A program made the position numbers and the translations under genes. Positions 1-10,584 of a DNA stretch of 34,678 bases are shown one piece after another (position 1 is the first letter of the stretch; the number at the start of each line of letters is the position of its first letter). The notes under the pieces were generated by a model, which worked only from the letters and a program-made list of their open reading frames with translations, ran no database searches and was not told the origin of the DNA. Origin of the DNA: a virus. The DNA lies in the IMG/VR virus record IMGVR_UViG_3300042475_001358, positions 1 through 34,678 of that record; one strand, 5' to 3'.

Positions 1-3000
1 GATCCTTGGGTTCGCCGGTCTGGTACTCGAGGGAGGTGGAAGCGAGCTCAGCGTCGCTGAGGCCTAGCTTCTTCTTGATCGCGGAGGCGATCTTCTTGTC
101 GACCTTGGGCTCCTTCTCGAGCACCTCAATGACCTTGTCTGCATCATCGGAGCGGAAGGTGATGCGGTCGCCATCAACCTTGAATGGCTTGGCGACATCG
201 CGCGCCAGGAAGCGGATGCGGTCGGCATCCTTGGTAAAGACAATGCGACCCTTTTCGTCCTTGGTGAACTTGTACCTGCCGGCGCTGCTGCTTACGGCGT
301 CTCTTTGCCCGACAGATCCGCTCCGTCCTTGAGCGCTTCCTGGAAGGCCTTGTCCATCTTCTGCCGCCAGAGCTTCGCCTCGAGCTGCTCCTGCGGCGTC
401 AGGGAATCCTTCGATGGTTGCTTGGTAGATGGCGTCGTCGATACGGCCGGCTTGGTATTCGGTTTCGGTTGCATTGAGTAGTCTCTCCTTCAGTCCAGAT
501 TTTATCACAGGCGTGATACTTTGGAGCGGCAAAAGCGCCGCCTTGCCCGGACCGCGCGAGTTGTCGATCGCATAGAGGGCGAAGTTGGGGTTGTCACCGA
601 ATTCATCCTGTAGCTTTCGCACTACTTCGCTCGAGCCCGCATGGCCTTTGACCAAAGCATCGAGCGGAACAGCGCGGCGCGTCTTCATGGCGCGCGTCAG
701 CACGCCATTGACCAGCGCCTCCTCGGGTTCGCGGTAGATGTATGCGATGACCACACGCTGGCCGCGGTCGAGTACGCGTTGGACGTTGCGCCTTGCTTTG
801 TCGTAGCTCGAGAGGGTGCCATCCAGGATCGTATGAACGCTGTCCTGCACCTTGCTGAGAAGCGTATCGGCAGAGGACTTGCCGGCCCCGCCGCCGCCGG
901 CCATGAAGAGCACGCTCGACTTGCGCGGTGCAGCATCGACGCGAGCTTCGAACATGCGCTGGGTCATGTTGCTGGCCGCATCGTGAACCTCGGCAGCCCG
1001 AGTCTTGTCGGCGCGGTAATCGGGCGAGAGCTCGCGGACCAGGTCGGTGTCGATCAGCTTGCCGTCTTGAGCGCCAGGCAGTGCGCTGTACTCAGCAACC
1101 GCGGCGTCGAAGTCGCCGTCAATCCTGGCCTGCAGCTTGTCGTTGATGTTGCCGCCAGCCTTGTTGCTGAACATGAAGTCGGCTTTGTCGCCGTAGACCG
1201 GATTCTTGGCCAGGACCAATGGGCCGATCTGGATGACTTCGTCAGCGGAGATCACGGGCTCCATGGTTGAGCGATCGTAGAAGTACGAGTGCCGCTCGGG
1301 GTCCATGCCGACCTGTACCCAGTCCTTGGACTTGAGCGCCTGGTCGGCTTTCATCTTGGCTTCGGCCGAGCTCGTAGGCTTCCAGTCGCCCATGATGGTG
1401 GCGATCGTGCCTTTGTTTGCGCCTGCGGCGATCTTGGCTGCAGACTTCTCGAGCATGCCGAACCTGACATTGGTTACTGAGGCAACCGGCTCGTAGCCGA
1501 TCACCGTGCCTGCACCGAAGGACTTGCCATCGGGGCGATGCACGCTGACAACCCAGGCGCCGTGCTCGGAGTAAGACGGAATATCGAGGCGCAGTTGAGC
1601 AGCCTCGCCGAGCTTGAATACCTGGCTTGGCAGACCGAACTTGGCGGCCTTTTCTGCCGACTGCCCGCGGCCATTGGCAAGCGCGAACTTGGCAGCCTCG
1701 GGGGTAACCGGATCCGGCACCGTTTCGTAGGGTTCGACGGGCTTGTACTCGTTGACCAGCCGGTCGTAGTCCTGCTTGGTGATCTCACCAGCCTGCAGCG
1801 CTCGCATGCCTTCCTGTAGCTCGGGCGTGCGCTTGATGACGTCCTTGAAATCCATCCCGATACGCGAGCGCGAAGACTCGGCGACGTCGGTCGCGACGTC
1901 GGGCTTGAGGCCCTGCGCCTTCATGGCTTCGGCGTACGCGTCGGTAAGAAGACTGCGAGCTCGCTCGACGTCCTTGATGTACTTGGACACGAACTCGTCG
2001 CCGTACTCCTTCTTGGCGCCGGTCACGATCTGAGTAAGTTTGCTCAGGATGACCTTGGCCACCTCGGCAAACTCCTTGTTGCCCATCTTCGTGCGCAGCT
2101 CTTCCCAGAAGTCGGCACGTTTGCTGACCGCCTGGGCCATCAAGGCCGGGGCCTCTTCATCGAACTTGGCGTCGTCGTACCCGAACTCGGCTTGGAACTC
2201 GCCCTTGCGTTCTTGGTTGAACACCTCGAGCAGTGCAGCGTTGAGTTGCTTGCGACGCTCTGCAGGTAGGCCATGCAAGCCTTCGTGCATGGCAATCGAC
2301 AGCGGCGCGTCATCCGCATTGGCGTCGATGAAGATGTGCTTGCCGCCCAGGCGGTTGATGAACCCATTGGGCATGCCGGCCGGGTCACCTTTGACCGCAC
2401 GGACCACCGTCAGCGTGTTGCCCATCAGGCGGGCTACCGTGCTTGCCAGACGCTGCGAATCGCTCAGGTCCGCAGGCGAGATCGCTTCGACGGTTACACC
2501 GCGTCGCTTCTCGAGCTGGGTCTGGACGTTCTGAAGCGTTGTCGCGGGCGCGGGTAGCGCGAGTCTCAGTCCGGCACGTTCAGAATCAGACAGTTGGACT
2601 TGCGCTGCGGGGGCTTGGCCTCCTGCAACAATGCCGCCTTGTGCGGCACCCATTGCTTGCTCTTGTTGCTGTCCTTGCGTTTCTGCTTGCTGGGCTTGAG
2701 TGGCTTGAGTGCCAAGGCTGCTCTCCTGAGGATAGCCGGCCAGTCGGAATTTGCCGTTGGGCATCTGCTCGATGGACCACGACAAGTCTTTGAACATGCG
2801 CTGCCGGCTGGGTAGCGCTTGCTCCGCATCCATGAGCGTGACGTATCCGTCACCGCGTCGGCCCGTCCAGATCTCGGTCGGGACTACAGCATTGTTATCT
2901 TGTCCGATCGCGGCTTCCGTGCGGGCCAGCAGGTCCGCATCCGATGCGCGAGGGATCGGGCTCGTGCTCGTCAGATTGGCAAGTCGTTGAGGGGCTCCGC

Positions 3001-4816
3001 CTCGAAGAGCATCATCTTGTTGATCGGCCCCTCGAATTCCTGCGAGAGCTCCACCCGGCACCCCGGCGGCGAGATCAAGATCACGTCCTGCAGCATCCAC
3101 GCCTCGTTGGTCGAGAGCACTCGTGCGTCCAGCGCCTCCTGCAAGTGGGGGTAGAGTTGAGCCTGGCGTGCTGACATCACTACCTCCGATGATGGCCGGC
3201 GCATCGGGCACCGGAATGACGATATCCACCAGGCCGGCGCGCTGAGTCGCTGAACCTGGCTCAGTGAAGTTGGTGAGGCGTGCTGCTTGTGCGGCCTCCT
3301 GTGCGCGACTGGCGGCACCCAGCACGCTGAAAGGTGCGGAGGTAACGAGCGCCTGGCCCATCGCCTCGGGGACGCCCTCGGTTAGCTTGACGTTCGGGTC
3401 GACTGTCCTTGCGATGACATTTGAGACAGCTTGTGTACCACCTTCTTCAGCCTGTTCGCCAAGCAAGTCTCGGATAATGGTTTTCCCCACGCCGGAAGCA
3501 GTAAGAGCTTGCGCAGTGGCCGTGCCCAAACCTCGAGTTGCGATCGCAGCTTCGGCGCCCGCAAAACCAAGCAACCCAAGCGGGAAAGCTACAAGCGCAG
3601 CCATTCTGGCTTTAGTGGTTGAGAGGTCTTCAATCGCTTGCTGCGGCGTCTTGCCCTCGGCAACCATGCGTTGAAAGTCAGGGTTCTTTTCCCAGACTGA
3701 TAGCGGGGTTTGCGTTGGGTCGGTGAGCTTTTCATAGACACTGCCAGCAGCATCGCCGCCAGCCATGGTCATAGCCGCAGCTCTGCCCCCTGCCACCGCT
3801 CCGGTTGCACGCGCGCCTGCTTGTATTGCTCCGCCGGTGATCGCGTCACTGAAAGCTACTGCGGGGCTCACACGGCTCGCTACGTTGACACCAGCACCAC
3901 CAGCTGCGGCACCCAGGCGCGAAGCGCCCAAGACACCCAGGAACATGGGCACTTGCTTGGCGGCTTCGGAGATGGTGAGCGCGGGGCTCGTGACGAGCTG
4001 CACGACCGTTGCCGCGTACTTGTCGAAGAAGCCCTCTTCCTGCTGCACACGCTGGCGCAACTGGTCGCGCTGAGCTTTGAGCACGTCGCTCTCGGCGGCC
4101 TGCCATTCCTTCTGAGTCTGGCGAAGCGTCTCAGCGATGTCGCTACTCGGGGCGATGATGTTGATCGGGAGCTGAGCCAGGGAGATGGCGCCTTGCGATA
4201 GGCCCGAAAGCGTATCGATTGCCCACTCGCCTGCGCTTCGAAACTCGTCCGCCTTCGCATCGCGGACCATGTCCTGTACGACTGGCCGATTCGTGCGCTG
4301 AATCATGTCGTCCAGCGACGGAACCTTCTGCTCTTCCATCGACTGAGCGACCTTGGCGACGATCGGACTCGAGGGCCTGGCTCGACCTGCGCGGACGTCG
4401 GCCGCCTGTTGTACGGTCTGCGTGCTGATCGGCCCGGCACCCAGCGATAGGCGCTGATCGATCGACGCTTGGCGCTGCTCGGCGGTGGGCTGATAGCCCT
4501 CCATGACGCTGGGCTTGGGCGCCGGCTTGAATACGTCAGTGAGGCGCGCAATCAGTCCGCGATTGTCCGCGGGAGGAGGCGTGCCTTGCATCGATGTGGC
4601 CGCGTCGCCGAAGTCAGTGCCGGCGATCTCAGGCGCCTGAGGGCGCTTGATCGAGGTGTCTACCAGGAACTGGCCGCGTGCCAGGTCGATGTCTTCGGTT
4701 GGAACTTGAGGAGCGATGACCTCATCAAAGTATTGACGACGCGCCTCTTCCTGCTGTTCGTAGGAGAGGGCCTGGAATGCGGAACTTGCCGCTACGTCAG
4801 ACCACTTCTTTGCCAT
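1..4816 (-). CDS. Giant polyvalent virion protein with zincin and zeta-toxin-like domains (partial, C-terminus off window)
   Basis: An open frame runs without a stop from ATG at 4816 to the window edge (1605 codons seen), so the protein is larger still. Residues 1-40 form a small charged domain with a YFDEV..PQVP pattern. Glycine/alanine-rich hydrophobic stretches near 285-310 and 405-425 could contact membrane. H844-E-G-L-H848 is an HExxH zinc site, and E887/E888 is a plausible third ligand, as in gluzincin peptidases. A P-loop GGGGAGKSS with K1313 heads a zeta-toxin-like kinase domain that extends to about residue 1470. Such mosaics of peptidase and toxin-like domains are known as phage polyvalent proteins and are thought to be injected with the DNA. 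Its place after other virion genes fits an ejected protein. Two small ORFs lie inside it in other frames. Delivery and enzyme activity are inferred. Confidence 0.85.
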   Translation of the reverse strand, partial: MAKKWSDVAASSAFQALSYEQQEEARRQYFDEVIAPQVPTEDIDLARGQFLVDTSIKRPQAPEIAGTDFGDAATSMQGTPPPADNRGLIARLTDVFKPAPKPSVMEGYQPTAEQRQASIDQRLSLGAGPISTQTVQQAADVRAGRARPSSPIVAKVAQSMEEQKVPSLDDMIQRTNRPVVQDMVRDAKADEFRSAGEWAIDTLSGLSQGAISLAQLPINIIAPSSDIAETLRQTQKEWQAAESDVLKAQRDQLRQRVQQEEGFFDKYAATVVQLVTSPALTISEAAKQVPMFLGVLGASRLGAAAGGAGVNVASRVSPAVAFSDAITGGAIQAGARATGAVAGGRAAAMTMAGGDAAGSVYEKLTDPTQTPLSVWEKNPDFQRMVAEGKTPQQAIEDLSTTKARMAALVAFPLGLLGFAGAEAAIATRGLGTATAQALTASGVGKTIIRDLLGEQAEEGGTQAVSNVIARTVDPNVKLTEGVPEAMGQALVTSAPFSVLGAASRAQEAAQAARLTNFTEPGSATQRAGLVDIVIPVPDAPAIIGGSDVSTPGSTLPPLAGGAGRTSALDQRGVDAAGRDLDLAAGVPGGALAGIRGADQQDDALRGGAPQRLANLTSTSPIPRASDADLLARTEAAIGQDNNAVVPTEIWTGRRGDGYVTLMDAEQALPSRQRMFKDLSWSIEQMPNGKFRLAGYPQESSLGTQATQAQQAETQGQQQEQAMGAAQGGIVAGGQAPAAQVQLSDSERAGLRLALPAPATTLQNVQTQLEKRRGVTVEAISPADLSDSQRLASTVARLMGNTLTVVRAVKGDPAGMPNGFINRLGGKHIFIDANADDAPLSIAMHEGLHGLPAERRKQLNAALLEVFNQERKGEFQAEFGYDDAKFDEEAPALMAQAVSKRADFWEELRTKMGNKEFAEVAKVILSKLTQIVTGAKKEYGDEFVSKYIKDVERARSLLTDAYAEAMKAQGLKPDVATDVAESSRSRIGMDFKDVIKRTPELQEGMRALQAGEITKQDYDRLVNEYKPVEPYETVPDPVTPEAAKFALANGRGQSAEKAAKFGLPSQVFKLGEAAQLRLDIPSYSEHGAWVVSVHRPDGKSFGAGTVIGYEPVASVTNVRFGMLEKSAAKIAAGANKGTIATIMGDWKPTSSAEAKMKADQALKSKDWVQVGMDPERHSYFYDRSTMEPVISADEVIQIGPLVLAKNPVYGDKADFMFSNKAGGNINDKLQARIDGDFDAAVAEYSALPGAQDGKLIDTDLVRELSPDYRADKTRAAEVHDAASNMTQRMFEARVDAAPRKSSVLFMAGGGGAGKSSADTLLSKVQDSVHTILDGTLSSYDKARRNVQRVLDRGQRVVIAYIYREPEEALVNGVLTRAMKTRRAVPLDALVKGHAGSSEVVRKLQDEFGDNPNFALYAIDNSRGPGKAALLPLQSITPVIKSGLKERLLNATETEYQAGRIDDAIYQATIEGFPDAAGAARGEALAAEDGQGLPGSAQGRSGSVGQRDAVSSSAGRYKFTKDEKGRIVFTKDADRIRFLARDVAKPFKVDGDRITFRSDDADKVIEVLEKEPKVDKKIASAIKKKLGLSDAELASTSLEYQTGEPKD
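292..474 (-). CDS. Small nested gene, 60 aa, inside the polyvalent-protein gene
   Basis: The ORF lies entirely within the polyvalent-protein gene in another frame. It encodes a basic, Pro/Thr/Ser-rich N-terminus followed by a charged, probably helical second half (TPQEQLEAKLWRQKMDKAFQ). The start ATG is preceded by AAGGAGA about 9 nt upstream. Further upstream is an extended -10 box (TGATAAAAT) overlapped by a perfect palindrome, so the ORF has its own promoter, operator and ribosome site. I recognise no family. The overlapped part of the long protein is the end of its kinase domain and a linker, and that frame also looks coding. A chance ORF cannot be excluded, but the combined signals favour a real gene. 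Confidence 0.5.
   Translation of the reverse strand: MQPKPNTKPAVSTTPSTKQPSKDSLTPQEQLEAKLWRQKMDKAFQEALKDGADLSGKETP
499..518 (-). promoter_or_regulatory. Extended -10 promoter overlapped by palindromic operator
   Basis: Read on the minus strand, TATCACGCCTGTGATA (503-518) has perfect 6-bp arms. It runs into TGATAAAAT, an extended -10 element (TAAAAT at 499-504). There is no good -35, as is usual for extended -10 promoters. The first start codon downstream is that of the nested gene at 474. A repressor bound to the palindrome would block the -10. The central 14 bp recur exactly at 31860-31873. Function is inferred. Confidence 0.45.
2971..3177 (-). CDS. Small nested ORF, 68 aa, inside the polyvalent-protein gene
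   Basis: ATG at 3177 follows GGAGG with a 5-nt spacer, one of the best ribosome sites in the window. The product begins MSARQAQLYPHLQEALDARV, followed by a segment with alternating hydrophobics (DVILISPPGCRVEL), and looks like ordinary globular protein. In contrast, the long frame here reads as a Gly/Ala/Arg/Asp-rich linker (about residues 547-616 of the polyvalent protein), typical of a frame shadowing another gene. I do not recognise the family. It could be an older small gene over which the polyvalent frame was extended, or an internally translated accessory protein. Confidence 0.5.
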   Translation of the reverse strand: MSARQAQLYPHLQEALDARVLSTNEAWMLQDVILISPPGCRVELSQEFEGPINKMMLFEAEPLNDLPI

Positions 4817-7012: not shown

Positions 7013-7461
7013 TGTGATACTCCTCGGACGTAGGACAGGTTGAGGCTCTCGCGCGCGAAACCTAATCTCTTGAGATAGCGAACAAGCCGCGGATCTGCGC
7101 CGGGCTCGAGCTCGATGATTGCCAGCTTAATGCCGGATCGGCCCTTGACCCACTCGGCAAACCGCCGAAGCAGGCCGACACCGGCCATCGGCACACGGGT
7201 GAAGTAAAGCAAGACCGAGCACTGCAGCTTTTCAAACCAGAACGACGGCTGCACACAAGCGGCAACCGCGGCGACCACCTTACCCTTGCTCTCGGCCACC
7301 CACAAAAAGTGCGCGGGGTTGAGCAGCGTGCGAGCGGTTTCAGCCATTGCCTCGCGGTCGATCTTGACTGGCAGCGGATCGCGAGAGACGGACTCGACTG
7401 CGATGTCCACGATCGCGGAGACGTCGTCCAGGCGGGCCTTGCGATACACGATCGTGCTCAT
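7009..7461 (-). CDS. GNAT-family N-acetyltransferase (150 aa)
   Basis: The fold is typical of GNAT enzymes, which move acetyl from acetyl-CoA to an amine. The N-terminal strand-helix reads YRKARLDDVSAIVDIAVESV. A beta strand (FLWVAESKGKVVAAVAA) follows, then a plausible pyrophosphate loop R-VPMAGVG-LL. The motif-B region contains RYLKRLGFARE. Its length is normal for the family. The gene overlaps both neighbours by 4 bp within the virion-protein cluster, so it is co-expressed late. GNATs in this position are known in several podoviruses. The substrate is unknown; a virion protein or a host protein met during ejection is possible. Confidence 0.85.
   Translation of the reverse strand: MSTIVYRKARLDDVSAIVDIAVESVSRDPLPVKIDREAMAETARTLLNPAHFLWVAESKGKVVAAVAACVQPSFWFEKLQCSVLLYFTRVPMAGVGLLRRFAEWVKGRSGIKLAIIELEPGADPRLVRYLKRLGFARESLNLSYVRGVSQ
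7010..7019 (-). promoter_or_regulatory. TATCACAATG motif on the start codon of the 7012 gene
   Basis: This is an exact copy of the recurrent motif. Its ATG is the start codon and GAGGAG lies directly upstream, so here it forms the ribosome binding region. No convincing -10 follows (only TAAGGT). It could be an operator, an RNA-level control site, or a relic. Confidence 0.4.
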
Positions 7462-9233
7462 GCCGTCTCTTGAAAGAATCCAGATTGGAACTGTTGTTGA
7501 GAATTCAGACGCTGTATCGATTCGTCAATATCGGCCTGAGAAAGTTGATACGCATTCATCGCCTGTGCAATCTCTTGTGGCGACGGATTAGTCGCCAAGA
7601 ATTGCCCGACACGCTCGTACATTGCATCGACACCACCGTTCTCCTCTGCCCAACGATAAGCGCCCGACCTGCCGTCATTGGAGGGCGGAGGTGGAGGCGG
7701 CGGCGGGGGAGGCGGCGGAGGTGGTGGAGGAGGCGGTGGAGGTGGTGGTGGCGGAGGAGGAGGTGCTGCAGGATTAAGGAAGGTTGCCGTACCTCCAGGT
7801 GCCGCAATCGTAGGTAGCGAGGTGTTGTAAAACGTCGAGCCCCACTGCATCGTCGCGTTGCCCGTGTCGATGATGTTCTGGATCGCCGCCTTCTTTGCAT
7901 TGGCGTCCAGGTTCGGATCCGCCTGGATAGCGTTGATCGCGTTCAGCGTGCCGGTCGCCAGGTTGGCGGCAAACGCCTGAGAAACGTTGGCGTCGTTGAT
8001 CGAGTCTTGCAGCTTGACGAGCGCGGTCTGATTGTCGCGATCGAGCTGCGCCTGCGTTGCTTGGAAGTCGCGATTGGCTTGCGCAAGATCGGATTGAGCT
8101 GTGCGGTCAAGCACATTCTCGCCGCGCTGGAACTCCTGCTGCGCAGTCTGAAGCGCTTGCTGAGCGGAGATATTCTTGTCAGCAATCATGATCTGCTGAG
8201 CGCGGTCCAGCTCCGACTGGGTTGCCTGGAAGTCCTGAGCGGCTTTCGCGAGATTCGCTTGCTGCGTACGGTCGAGCACATTCTCGCTGCGCGTGAACTC
8301 CTGCTGAGCATTCTGTAGCGCAATAGCCTGGGCGCGGTTGAGCTCGGCCTGTGCCGACTCAAAGTTCTGGCGCGCCGTCTCGAGCGCCTGCTGTGCGGCA
8401 ATACTTCTGTCCTGCAGTGCGATCTGGTTGGCGCGATCGAGCGCGTTCTCGGCCGACGTGAACTTCTGTTGCGCAAGTTGCAGATTTGCCTGAGCACTGC
8501 GATCCAACTCCGCCTGGGTTGCGGTAAACGTCTGCTGGCTTTCCTGTAGCTTGACTTGCTGAGCGCGGTTCAAGTCTGCTTGCGCAGCGTCGAAGGCTTG
8601 CTGAGCTGCTTGCAGCGCTTTGTTCGCCTCGATCGACTTCTCGGCAAGCGCGCGTTCCTGGGCGCGGGTGAGGTCGTTCTGCGCGGCGGTAAAGACCTGC
8701 TGCGCCTCGCGCTCGGTCGTCTGGAATTGGCGAGTCGCCTGGTTCTCTTTGGCCGTGAAGGCCTGATCGGAGCGCTGCAGGCCGAACTTGTTCGCCTCGC
8801 CAGCGTTGAATTGAGCCGCGGTATTGGCGGCCGCCTGATTCGCAATCGTACGATTGGCGTAGGTTTCAGCGTCCTGCTGGGCGATCGGCGTAATCCGATC
8901 GATCATGGCGGCGACGCCTGCACCCTGCGCCATGGAGCTGTTGACCAGGCCGCGCTGATTCATGTTCTGCATCGCGATCGTGCGGGCGCGCTGCAGTAGC
9001 GGGCTATCTTTAGCGAGGAGCGATTCAATCTGACCGGCCGCAGTCTCGGTGGTCCGGTCGATACTGCGCTCCTGCGCAGTGTAGGTCTGCGGGTTGAACC
9101 CAGCCATCGGGTCGTAGTTCGACGCGGACTGGCCTTGTGTCGCGCTACCGATCGCGCCCGAGACCAGGCCCGGCTGCTTGGCCTTGGCCTGCTGGGTATC
9201 GAAAGGATTCTGTACGACGGTGGTGGTGGCCAT
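7458..9233 (-). CDS. Virion protein with hendecad coiled-coil superrepeat and 27-proline run (591 aa)
   Basis: Residues 1-180 are helical and polar. Residues 181-411 are three 77-residue superrepeats, each built from blocks of 33, 22 and 22 residues beginning with Phe and carrying L(D/N)RAQ, so all spacings are multiples of 11, the signature of a hendecad right-handed coiled coil. Residues 491-517 are 27 consecutive prolines. Residues 518-591 form a small domain (AYRWAEENGGVDAMYERVGQ) that looks globular. The ATG at 9233 follows GAGG, which directly abuts an intrinsic terminator. The position before GNAT and the ejection proteins suggests a tail-tip, core or fibre rod; this is inference from architecture. 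Confidence 0.75.
   Translation of the reverse strand: MATTTVVQNPFDTQQAKAKQPGLVSGAIGSATQGQSASNYDPMAGFNPQTYTAQERSIDRTTETAAGQIESLLAKDSPLLQRARTIAMQNMNQRGLVNSSMAQGAGVAAMIDRITPIAQQDAETYANRTIANQAAANTAAQFNAGEANKFGLQRSDQAFTAKENQATRQFQTTEREAQQVFTAAQNDLTRAQERALAEKSIEANKALQAAQQAFDAAQADLNRAQQVKLQESQQTFTATQAELDRSAQANLQLAQQKFTSAENALDRANQIALQDRSIAAQQALETARQNFESAQAELNRAQAIALQNAQQEFTRSENVLDRTQQANLAKAAQDFQATQSELDRAQQIMIADKNISAQQALQTAQQEFQRGENVLDRTAQSDLAQANRDFQATQAQLDRDNQTALVKLQDSINDANVSQAFAANLATGTLNAINAIQADPNLDANAKKAAIQNIIDTGNATMQWGSTFYNTSLPTIAAPGGTATFLNPAAPPPPPPPPPPPPPPPPPPPPPPPPPPPSNDGRSGAYRWAEENGGVDAMYERVGQFLATNPSPQEIAQAMNAYQLSQADIDESIQRLNSQQQFQSGFFQETA
7683..7763 (-). repeat. Poly-proline tract, 27 CCN codons
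   Basis: There are 81 bp of mixed CCN codons (CCT, CCG, CCA and CCC all used). The complementary plus strand is an unbroken run of GGN. Mixed codons argue against a recent slippage expansion. Confidence 0.95.
8001..8693 (-). repeat. Three 231-bp (77-residue) coding superrepeats
   Basis: The units are residues 181-257, 258-334 and 335-411 of the coiled-coil protein. Each unit has a 33-residue block ending in an ALQxAQQ-like helix, then two 22-residue blocks. The sub-blocks begin with F-x-A/S-x(3)-L. Confidence 0.85.
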
Positions 9234-9340: not shown

Positions 9341-9844
9341 TCAGTCCGATTTCTCGTTGAATTTCGCCCTTACTTCGTTGTAGGCGTCGATGCAGGCGTT
9401 GAGCTGTCGGATGGCTTCGTCTCCTTCGGAGGCGATGGATACAAGAGTTCCAGCAGCCTCTGCTGCAAGTTCGGCTCGCGCTTCAGGTCGATCCCCGCTG
9501 GCAGCGGCGGCACCTTGGGCTTCGGGGCGAGGACAGGCGGAGGCGACGGGGATTGACATCCGAAGAGCGCCAGAGCGGATGTCAGCAACAATGCGGTCAG
9601 AGCGGTTCTTTGCATCACGAATTTCCTTTGCGTGCTTGGAGGCGAGGTCGTTCAATCGTTCAGAGGCCTCGGTCTCGACCTTGCGTACAGCGTCCGTAGC
9701 CTCAGCCAACTTTTTTGCAGAGAGCGCCTCCATCTCGGCGAAGCGCTTCCCCCACTTGGTGTCGGCGTCAGCCTTGCCCCACCAGTAACCGAGCCCCAGC
9801 GCAATCAGCACCGAGACCAGCAAGATCAGAATTCGCTCGGTCAT
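9341..9844 (-). CDS. Rz: Rz-like inner-membrane spanin (i-spanin, 167 aa)
   Basis: The start is ATG at 9844 (MTERILILLV), which overlaps the endolysin stop by 4 bp and has AAAGG upstream. Residues 5-21 form one transmembrane helix, and a long periplasmic coiled coil follows (about 30-95), as in i-spanins that bridge to the outer-membrane lipoprotein and fuse the membranes at lysis. A small lipoprotein gene lies wholly inside it in another frame, the classic Rz/Rz1 arrangement. It is the last gene of the lysis cassette. Confidence 0.9.
   Translation of the reverse strand: MTERILILLVSVLIALGLGYWWGKADADTKWGKRFAEMEALSAKKLAEATDAVRKVETEASERLNDLASKHAKEIRDAKNRSDRIVADIRSGALRMSIPVASACPRPEAQGAAAASGDRPEARAELAAEAAGTLVSIASEGDEAIRQLNACIDAYNEVRAKFNEKSD
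9370..9615 (-). CDS. Rz1: Rz1-like outer-membrane spanin lipoprotein, nested in Rz (81 aa)
   Basis: A short hydrophobic signal (LTALLLTSALALFGC) ends in a lipobox-like LFGC. A proline-rich mature chain follows (SPPPVLAPKPKVPPLP), the hallmark of o-spanins. The start is ATG at 9615 with AAGGA about 8 nt upstream; a GTG directly before it is the alternative. The gene is fully embedded in Rz in another frame. The partner is the Rz protein. Confidence 0.9.
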   Translation of the reverse strand: MQRTALTALLLTSALALFGCQSPSPPPVLAPKPKVPPLPAGIDLKREPNLQQRLLELLYPSPPKETKPSDSSTPASTPTTK

Positions 9845-10584
9845 ACCTTTCCCCTGTATTTCGGCATCCGGGTGTGGATCACGTCGTGGACGTGGTGCCG
9901 GTTGATGTCGCAGGCTGATCGGCCCGCATAGAGCGGCTTGGTGGACTTCAGGCAGACGTTCTCGACATGGCCGAACCATTGATTCGGATCACACCCGGCG
10001 CGCGATGCGCAGGCTCTGCGCTCGTTGAGCAACCCACCGAGCCCGCCGTTGTACGCAGCGTCAGTCATCTGGAGCCTGGCGCCGTCTTCAGGCACAAGCT
10101 TCTGCAGCCGGTTCCAATTCTGTCGAGTCATCAGGATGATCACTCGGATCTGCAGGTCCGGCCGCTGGTAGACCGTATCCCAGCGCAGCTCGTTGAGTCC
10201 GCGGGGATCAACCTTGCGCATGTCGTTGAGCGCATCGAAGCGGATCGACCCGTCCGGGTTGTACGCTCGAGTCAATTGCCCAAGGCCTGCGCCCTCCTCC
10301 CGGCTCGTCTTCAGCCGGCTCGTCGGCGACCAGCACCGTGAGTGCTTGAGTGAGATGCAGCTTTCGTGCTCGATCAGTGCCGGAAAGTAGTGCGGCTCGG
10401 GCATCCGCTCCCACACTTCCTTGTACTGAATCGTCACCCAGTGCAGGTACTTCTCCGCATTGGAGGGGATGAACGTGCGGACATCCTGAGCGAATGCGGC
10501 CTGGCTCAGCAGCGCAAGAACGATCGCGGCAGCGAATCGTTTCAGCGCGCGACCGTGCCGGCGAAAAAGCTCAATAGAGACCAT
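9841..10584 (-). CDS. Endolysin: secreted lytic transglycosylase-like muramidase (247 aa)
   Basis: A basic N-terminus and hydrophobic segment (FAAAIVLALLSQAAFA) form a Sec signal, with likely cleavage after residue 32. The segment PALIEHESC carries the glutamate expected of SLT-type lytic transglycosylases (E74 most likely catalytic), and a later AAYNGG motif is typical of that fold. Several cysteines fit periplasmic disulfides. It cuts the glycan strands of peptidoglycan. Because it is exported, the neighbouring holins would trigger rather than release it. The start overlaps the holin gene by 43 bp and lacks a clear Shine-Dalgarno, so the exact start is uncertain. Confidence 0.85.
   Translation of the reverse strand: MVSIELFRRHGRALKRFAAAIVLALLSQAAFAQDVRTFIPSNAEKYLHWVTIQYKEVWERMPEPHYFPALIEHESCISLKHSRCWSPTSRLKTSREEGAGLGQLTRAYNPDGSIRFDALNDMRKVDPRGLNELRWDTVYQRPDLQIRVIILMTRQNWNRLQKLVPEDGARLQMTDAAYNGGLGGLLNERRACASRAGCDPNQWFGHVENVCLKSTKPLYAGRSACDINRHHVHDVIHTRMPKYRGKV

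Follow-up and report, generated by a model that had tools for sequence, protein, structure and literature searches.

The stretch of DNA analyzed here, referred to below as the window, is a phage record of 34,678 nucleotides (nt), IMGVR_UViG_3300042475_001358. On its minus strand it encodes a large protein with a zeta-type kinase domain, and a small gene lies out of frame across the end of that domain. An initial annotation, made from the letters of the sequence, had claimed an out-of-frame open reading frame (ORF) of 60 codons inside a polyvalent-protein gene. This ORF is present: it starts with an ATG at position 474, ends at 292 on the minus strand, and is read in the +1 frame with respect to the main ORF of 1605 codons. 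The features discussed below are as follows.

2-4816, minus strand: host gene, more than 1605 codons, encoding a large protein; it runs off the window edge and continues in L001
404-1153, minus strand: kinase domain of zeta type within the host gene, with the P-loop MAGGGGAGKSS, identified by Pfam, profile and fold matches
302-403, minus strand: main-frame linker past the zeta fold, overprinted by the nested gene and predicted to be disordered
292-474, minus strand: nested gene, 60 codons, +1 relative to the host frame, studied by conservation, selection, survey and structure prediction; proposed epsilon1-type antitoxin or partner
484-490, minus strand: AAGGAGA, resembling a Shine-Dalgarno sequence, 9 nt ahead of the nested start codon, read at the coordinates
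499-507, minus strand: promoter-like extended -10 box TGATAAAAT, lying 25-33 nt ahead of the ATG of the nested gene
503-518, no strand assigned: inverted repeat TATCAC-N4-GTGATA, a supposed operator, probably incidental

The zeta-type kinase and the gene nested at its end

The host gene matches the Pfam family Zeta_toxin (E 2.8e-14), and Pfam also gives a sub-threshold L5 gp82-like match in the same protein, whose downstream modules vary among relatives. By sequence, the best solved relative of the window kinase is the gonococcal zeta1 toxin (profile match, E 1.5e-17). The P-loop, GGGG(A/S)GK(S/T), aligns with that of zeta1, and its catalytic lysine is invariant in all 16 aligned kinases. An AlphaFold2 model of the kinase has a mean predicted local distance difference test score (pLDDT) of 84 and a confident fold until about residue 266. 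When the PDB was searched with this model using Foldseek, the top six matches were epsilon1/zeta1 complexes, with template modeling (TM) scores of 0.71-0.74; PezT and streptococcal zeta were far behind (TM about 0.35), and the next fold relatives include AvrRxo1 bound to its small partner ORF2. By profile and by fold, the window kinase is a member of the zeta1 (rewired) subfamily. Among the collected phage and plasmid records, the zeta region had no close sequence matches or very few. Short motifs such as MFSN, VSFSQR and MMFSNR recur between modules of the large proteins in L019, L026, L029 and the window (1201-1100), including just before the zeta domain, and are possibly processing sites or module borders.

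The nested protein has no credible family match in Pfam, PHROGs or NCBIfam, and searching the PDB with a profile of window-type nested proteins returned chance matches only. Its AlphaFold2 model (mean pLDDT 71) is a single helix, residues 27-50, with the remainder unstructured. In the annotated plasmid and phage records that were inspected, the corresponding nested ORFs are unannotated.

Conservation and codon-level selection

A zeta-domain search of viral contigs yielded 32 loci, and 27 close relatives were examined (17 once near-duplicates were removed, the window's own phage included). The nested ORF occurs in all 27, in the same +1 frame, with its ATG in the same position and a length of 51-61 codons. 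This ATG sits just past the main-frame residues GL.E[KRE][LF]; L016, L024 and L031 have an additional, earlier in-frame ATG. The nested gene accompanies zeta in these relatives, and the modules downstream differ. None of the 27 combines an intact main frame with a stop in the nested frame, the pattern that the initial annotation had named as evidence against the gene; farther out, 3 of 55 lineages lack the ORF.

Those 55 lineages, each below 85% identity to the others, came from a wider search (77 loci) together with genomes and plasmids. An overlapping ORF was counted if it began with ATG, had at least 40 codons, spanned the end of the zeta domain and ended at least 15 codons beyond it. By this measure, a +1 ORF is present at the zeta end in 48 of the 55 lineages, from phages and plasmids, and the +2 control gives 0 of 55. 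A conservative count is 46 of 55, since the gonococcal and Solimonas loci may be chance, and these counts depend on the collections searched, the pattern-based retrieval and the chosen thresholds. In another four lineages the +1 frame is open but has no ATG. Where zeta stands alone, its stop lying 1-4 codons past the domain, the small gene overlaps the zeta stop and continues beyond it; where zeta is fused to further domains, the zeta frame continues through the small gene, which is hence fully nested. In L012, L013, L014, L015, L017 and L074, the zeta frame stops about 96 codons past the domain, after a common tail (LTKLFTDLRGARGLKLARVQEQVENN...) that is unlike the long fusions elsewhere.

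In the region past the zeta fold, the constraint lies on the nested frame. There, position 3 of the main-frame codons is the least variable (0.41, against 0.51 and 0.51 at the other two positions). The position-3 statistic for this region is -0.10 (bootstrap confidence interval -0.17 to -0.04), compared with 0.22 to 0.46 in 186 control windows of the zeta domain. Amino-acid identity is 0.38 for the nested protein versus 0.28 for the main one. Substitutions were counted in the same region across ten independent sister pairs. Nested-frame codons with one substitution comprise 59 synonymous and 17 non-synonymous changes, against 4 and 60 in the main frame (Fisher p 1e-18). Purifying selection targets the nested protein, and the main-frame linker chiefly needs to stay open. 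The disordered linker of the AlphaFold2 model (pLDDT about 30) agrees with a main frame in which openness is the main requirement.

An ORF held open by chance, through the amino-acid or GC composition of the linker, would fit its GC-rich, stop-poor sequence, and low-complexity stretches elsewhere in the host gene likewise show a shifted GC content at third codon positions. Openness was considered as proof of a gene and rejected as such: with the main protein and codon usage held fixed, the nested frame stays open in about three quarters of synonymous-codon shuffles (P about 0.75 per lineage, as a geometric mean). The chance explanation is nevertheless refuted by the substitution pattern and by the contrast of 48 of 55 with 0 of 55, the conserved start also speaks against it, and we give it practically no weight. 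The nested ORF is a real protein-coding gene, with the conserved start and frame and the second-frame codon constraint of an overlapping gene. The view that it exceeds chance is thus upheld through its kept start, frame and length in 27 of 27 relatives, its codon constraint and the lineage survey, and not through openness.

Start signals upstream of the nested ATG

The ribosome-binding sequence noted initially, AAGGAGA ahead of the nested ATG, is found at 490-484, and a purine-rich Shine-Dalgarno-like stretch (AAGGAG, AAAGAG or GGAG-like) is present in all close relatives, the weakest being that of L010 (AAGGAAAGG). The extended -10 box is also present, at 507-499, and is conserved as TGnTAnAAT in all nine members of the window's clade, those with the residues ITxVI, at 32-34 nt before the ATG and in two registers. 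It has no counterpart in the other 18 close relatives, whose amino acids mostly forbid it, so this part of the initial reading holds for one clade only. The clade elements use the rare isoleucine codon ATA, and each has a low probability under synonymous shuffling (P 0.0001-0.0065), which argues that in the window's clade codon choice does not by itself account for the extended -10; this element is a predicted promoter. Outside this clade, the nested gene presumably uses the mRNA of the host gene or another promoter.

The third signal, described as a perfect palindrome overlapping the -10 box, did not survive inspection. The sequence at 518-503 (TATCACGCCTGTGATA; reverse complement TATCACAGGCGTGATA) is imperfect, with 6-bp arms flanking four unpaired bases, and 20 inverted repeats of this 6+N4+6 form occur in the window. 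Only one relative, L011, repeats the full 6-bp arms, which are accounted for by the conserved residues I-T-x-V-I, and six other clade members have 5-bp arms. A palindromic operator was therefore rejected, the repeat being of a common form with full arms shared with L011 only.

The start signals also bear on the possibility that ribosomes are programmed to shift from zeta into the +1 frame, giving zeta an alternative C-terminus in place of a separate small protein. Consistent with such frameshifting, the small ORF is always in the same +1 frame relative to zeta. However, the ATG and the Shine-Dalgarno-like stretch are conserved in 27 of 27 close relatives, a promoter-like element specific to one clade lies upstream, and the gonococcal plasmid carries epsilon1 as a gene of its own. 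Taken together, these observations make programmed frameshifting very unlikely.

A candidate antitoxin of the epsilon1 type

The best-studied kinase of the subfamily, gonococcal zeta1, phosphorylates UDP-sugar cell-wall precursors and lyses cells (PMC5923241). Its antitoxin, epsilon1, has 61 amino acids, rescues cells from zeta1 lysis, and lies over zeta1 as an extended, non-globular chain that covers the ATP site (PMC5923241); degradation or loss of epsilon1 frees zeta1 in gonococci (PMC11964940). Plasmid relatives of the window locus, from Pandoraea, Burkholderia, Paraburkholderia, Methylomonas, Moraxella bovis and sphingomonads, provide a link to this system. In a comparison with about 1,900 sequences, a profile of their nested ORFs matched epsilon1 best (E 1.6e-5), and HHalign aligned them with epsilon1 with a probability of 90% (E 1.8e-6). 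On sequence evidence, the plasmid nested ORFs are homologues of epsilon1. In the gonococcal plasmid itself, epsilon1 lies directly upstream of zeta1, and the nested site there shows no motif-bearing ORF; the idea that epsilon1 is itself nested in gonococcal zeta1 was rejected on account of this upstream location. The upstream and nested positions look like alternatives for the antitoxin.

The nested ORF is probably a small antitoxin of the epsilon1 type, the immunity partner of the zeta kinase that it overlaps, encoded out of frame at the end of its toxin and predicted to inhibit it. The window protein is too diverged for a match to epsilon1, so its assignment depends on position, frame, size and partner. 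Its single-helix model is compatible with the binding mode of epsilon1. Under this proposal, the small protein, mostly unstructured and with one helix, would bind across the kinase and cover the ATP site as epsilon1 does on zeta1. With a stand-alone zeta, the small gene begins in the last zeta codons and ends beyond the stop of zeta. In a fused protein like that of the window, the zeta frame passes through the small gene into further domains, leaving the proposed antitoxin wholly nested. The nested protein would be translated from its own start, and in the window's clade the internal promoter would also yield antitoxin-only transcripts, giving an excess of antitoxin over the large toxin. Binding and inhibition of the kinase by the window protein are inferred, as is the activity of the internal promoter.

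Several observations weigh against this proposal. Direct profile comparison of the window-type nested protein with epsilon1 gave no signal, the C-terminal part reaching an HHalign probability of 1.2%. Phage intermediates form a marginal bridge to epsilon1 (E 0.005-0.01); full-length comparisons with epsilon1 are stronger, but part of that strength comes from the conserved zeta codons in the overlap. The three lineages without an overlapping small ORF (L041, L045 and L117) also have no detectable substitute antitoxin nearby, and their kinases are either orphans or paired with an unrecognised antitoxin. Lastly, the kinases of fused proteins might lack activity or act on different substrates.

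The same observations leave some room for a nested gene that is real and incidentally linked to zeta but whose product is not an inhibitor, being instead a chaperone or loading factor for the protein that bears zeta, or an unrelated peptide directed at the host. The window-type protein lacks both sequence similarity to epsilon1 and a family match, and the AvrRxo1 complex with ORF2 among the PDB relatives would fit such a role. In the plasmid relatives, however, epsilon1 homologues have this position, frame, size and partner, and it is an antitoxin that predicts one-to-one linkage with a potentially self-toxic kinase. A non-inhibitory product is thus unlikely, if less so than frameshifting. The initial suggestion, that a nested gene has start signals of its own and might modulate the toxin-like domain, has been strengthened at its core by the evidence of selection, by the gene's travel with zeta and by the epsilon1-homologous plasmid members; its promoter is retained for the window's clade, and its palindromic operator is not.

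Comparison with known systems places the proposed antitoxin in context. Gonococcal epsilon1/zeta1, a type II system of pConj (PDB 6EPG, 6EPH and 6EPI; Rocker et al. 2018, PMC5923241), shares its kinase fold and sequence subfamily with the window locus and has a partner of about 60 amino acids to which the plasmid nested ORFs are homologous. It differs in that epsilon1 is a separate gene, whereas here the small gene is in another frame at or over the zeta 3' end, and in that the window kinase belongs to a far larger phage protein. The canonical streptococcal epsilon/zeta (pSM19035) and PezAT systems likewise place a zeta-family kinase under a small antitoxin, but that antitoxin is a three-helix bundle encoded by a separate gene (PMC5923241), in contrast to the one helix modeled for the window protein. 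EzeT of E. coli, as cited in PMC5923241, carries antitoxin information inside the toxin gene as a cis-acting domain, in the same frame and the same polypeptide, while in the window the frame is different and the polypeptide separate. Polyvalent proteins, which phages and conjugative elements encode (Iyer et al. 2017, PMC5512222), are large and multi-module, with a zeta-like kinase among their modules; a text search of that paper found no discussion of an overlapping partner gene.

Rz1 within Rz is likewise an out-of-frame gene in a gene and a functional partner of its host gene, but these are lysis spanins, unrelated proteins. The window contains a classical Rz/Rz1 arrangement of its own on the minus strand: an Rz-type lysis gene (9341-9979; Pfam Phage_lysis, E 3.7e-13) encloses a second nested out-of-frame ORF (9370-9618) of 82 codons, proline-rich and with a lipobox-like LFGC. 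Also on the minus strand, 7458-9233 encodes a 591-amino-acid protein with repeated Q/A-rich segments and an unbroken run of about 30 prolines, for which there is no Pfam match.

The toxin-antitoxin kind is known, and an out-of-frame nested antitoxin for the zeta family would be a new arrangement; no report of a nested or overlapping zeta antitoxin was found in the open-access papers searched, most subscription papers and bioRxiv lying outside the scope of that search. We lean, somewhat less firmly than for the window's gene, toward a widespread class of toxin-antitoxin modules whose antitoxin gene runs out of frame through the 3' end of the toxin gene, so that the module moves between phage and plasmid proteins only with its antidote, and in which some phages make the antidote first or in excess through an internal promoter. 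Phage and plasmid proteins with a zeta-type kinase can resemble toxins without an antitoxin. If the proposal is correct, the missing antitoxin is present, hidden in another frame, which would account for the safe production of a potentially lethal domain in the producing cell and for its recombination between proteins, and would provide a genomic rule for locating further hidden partners.
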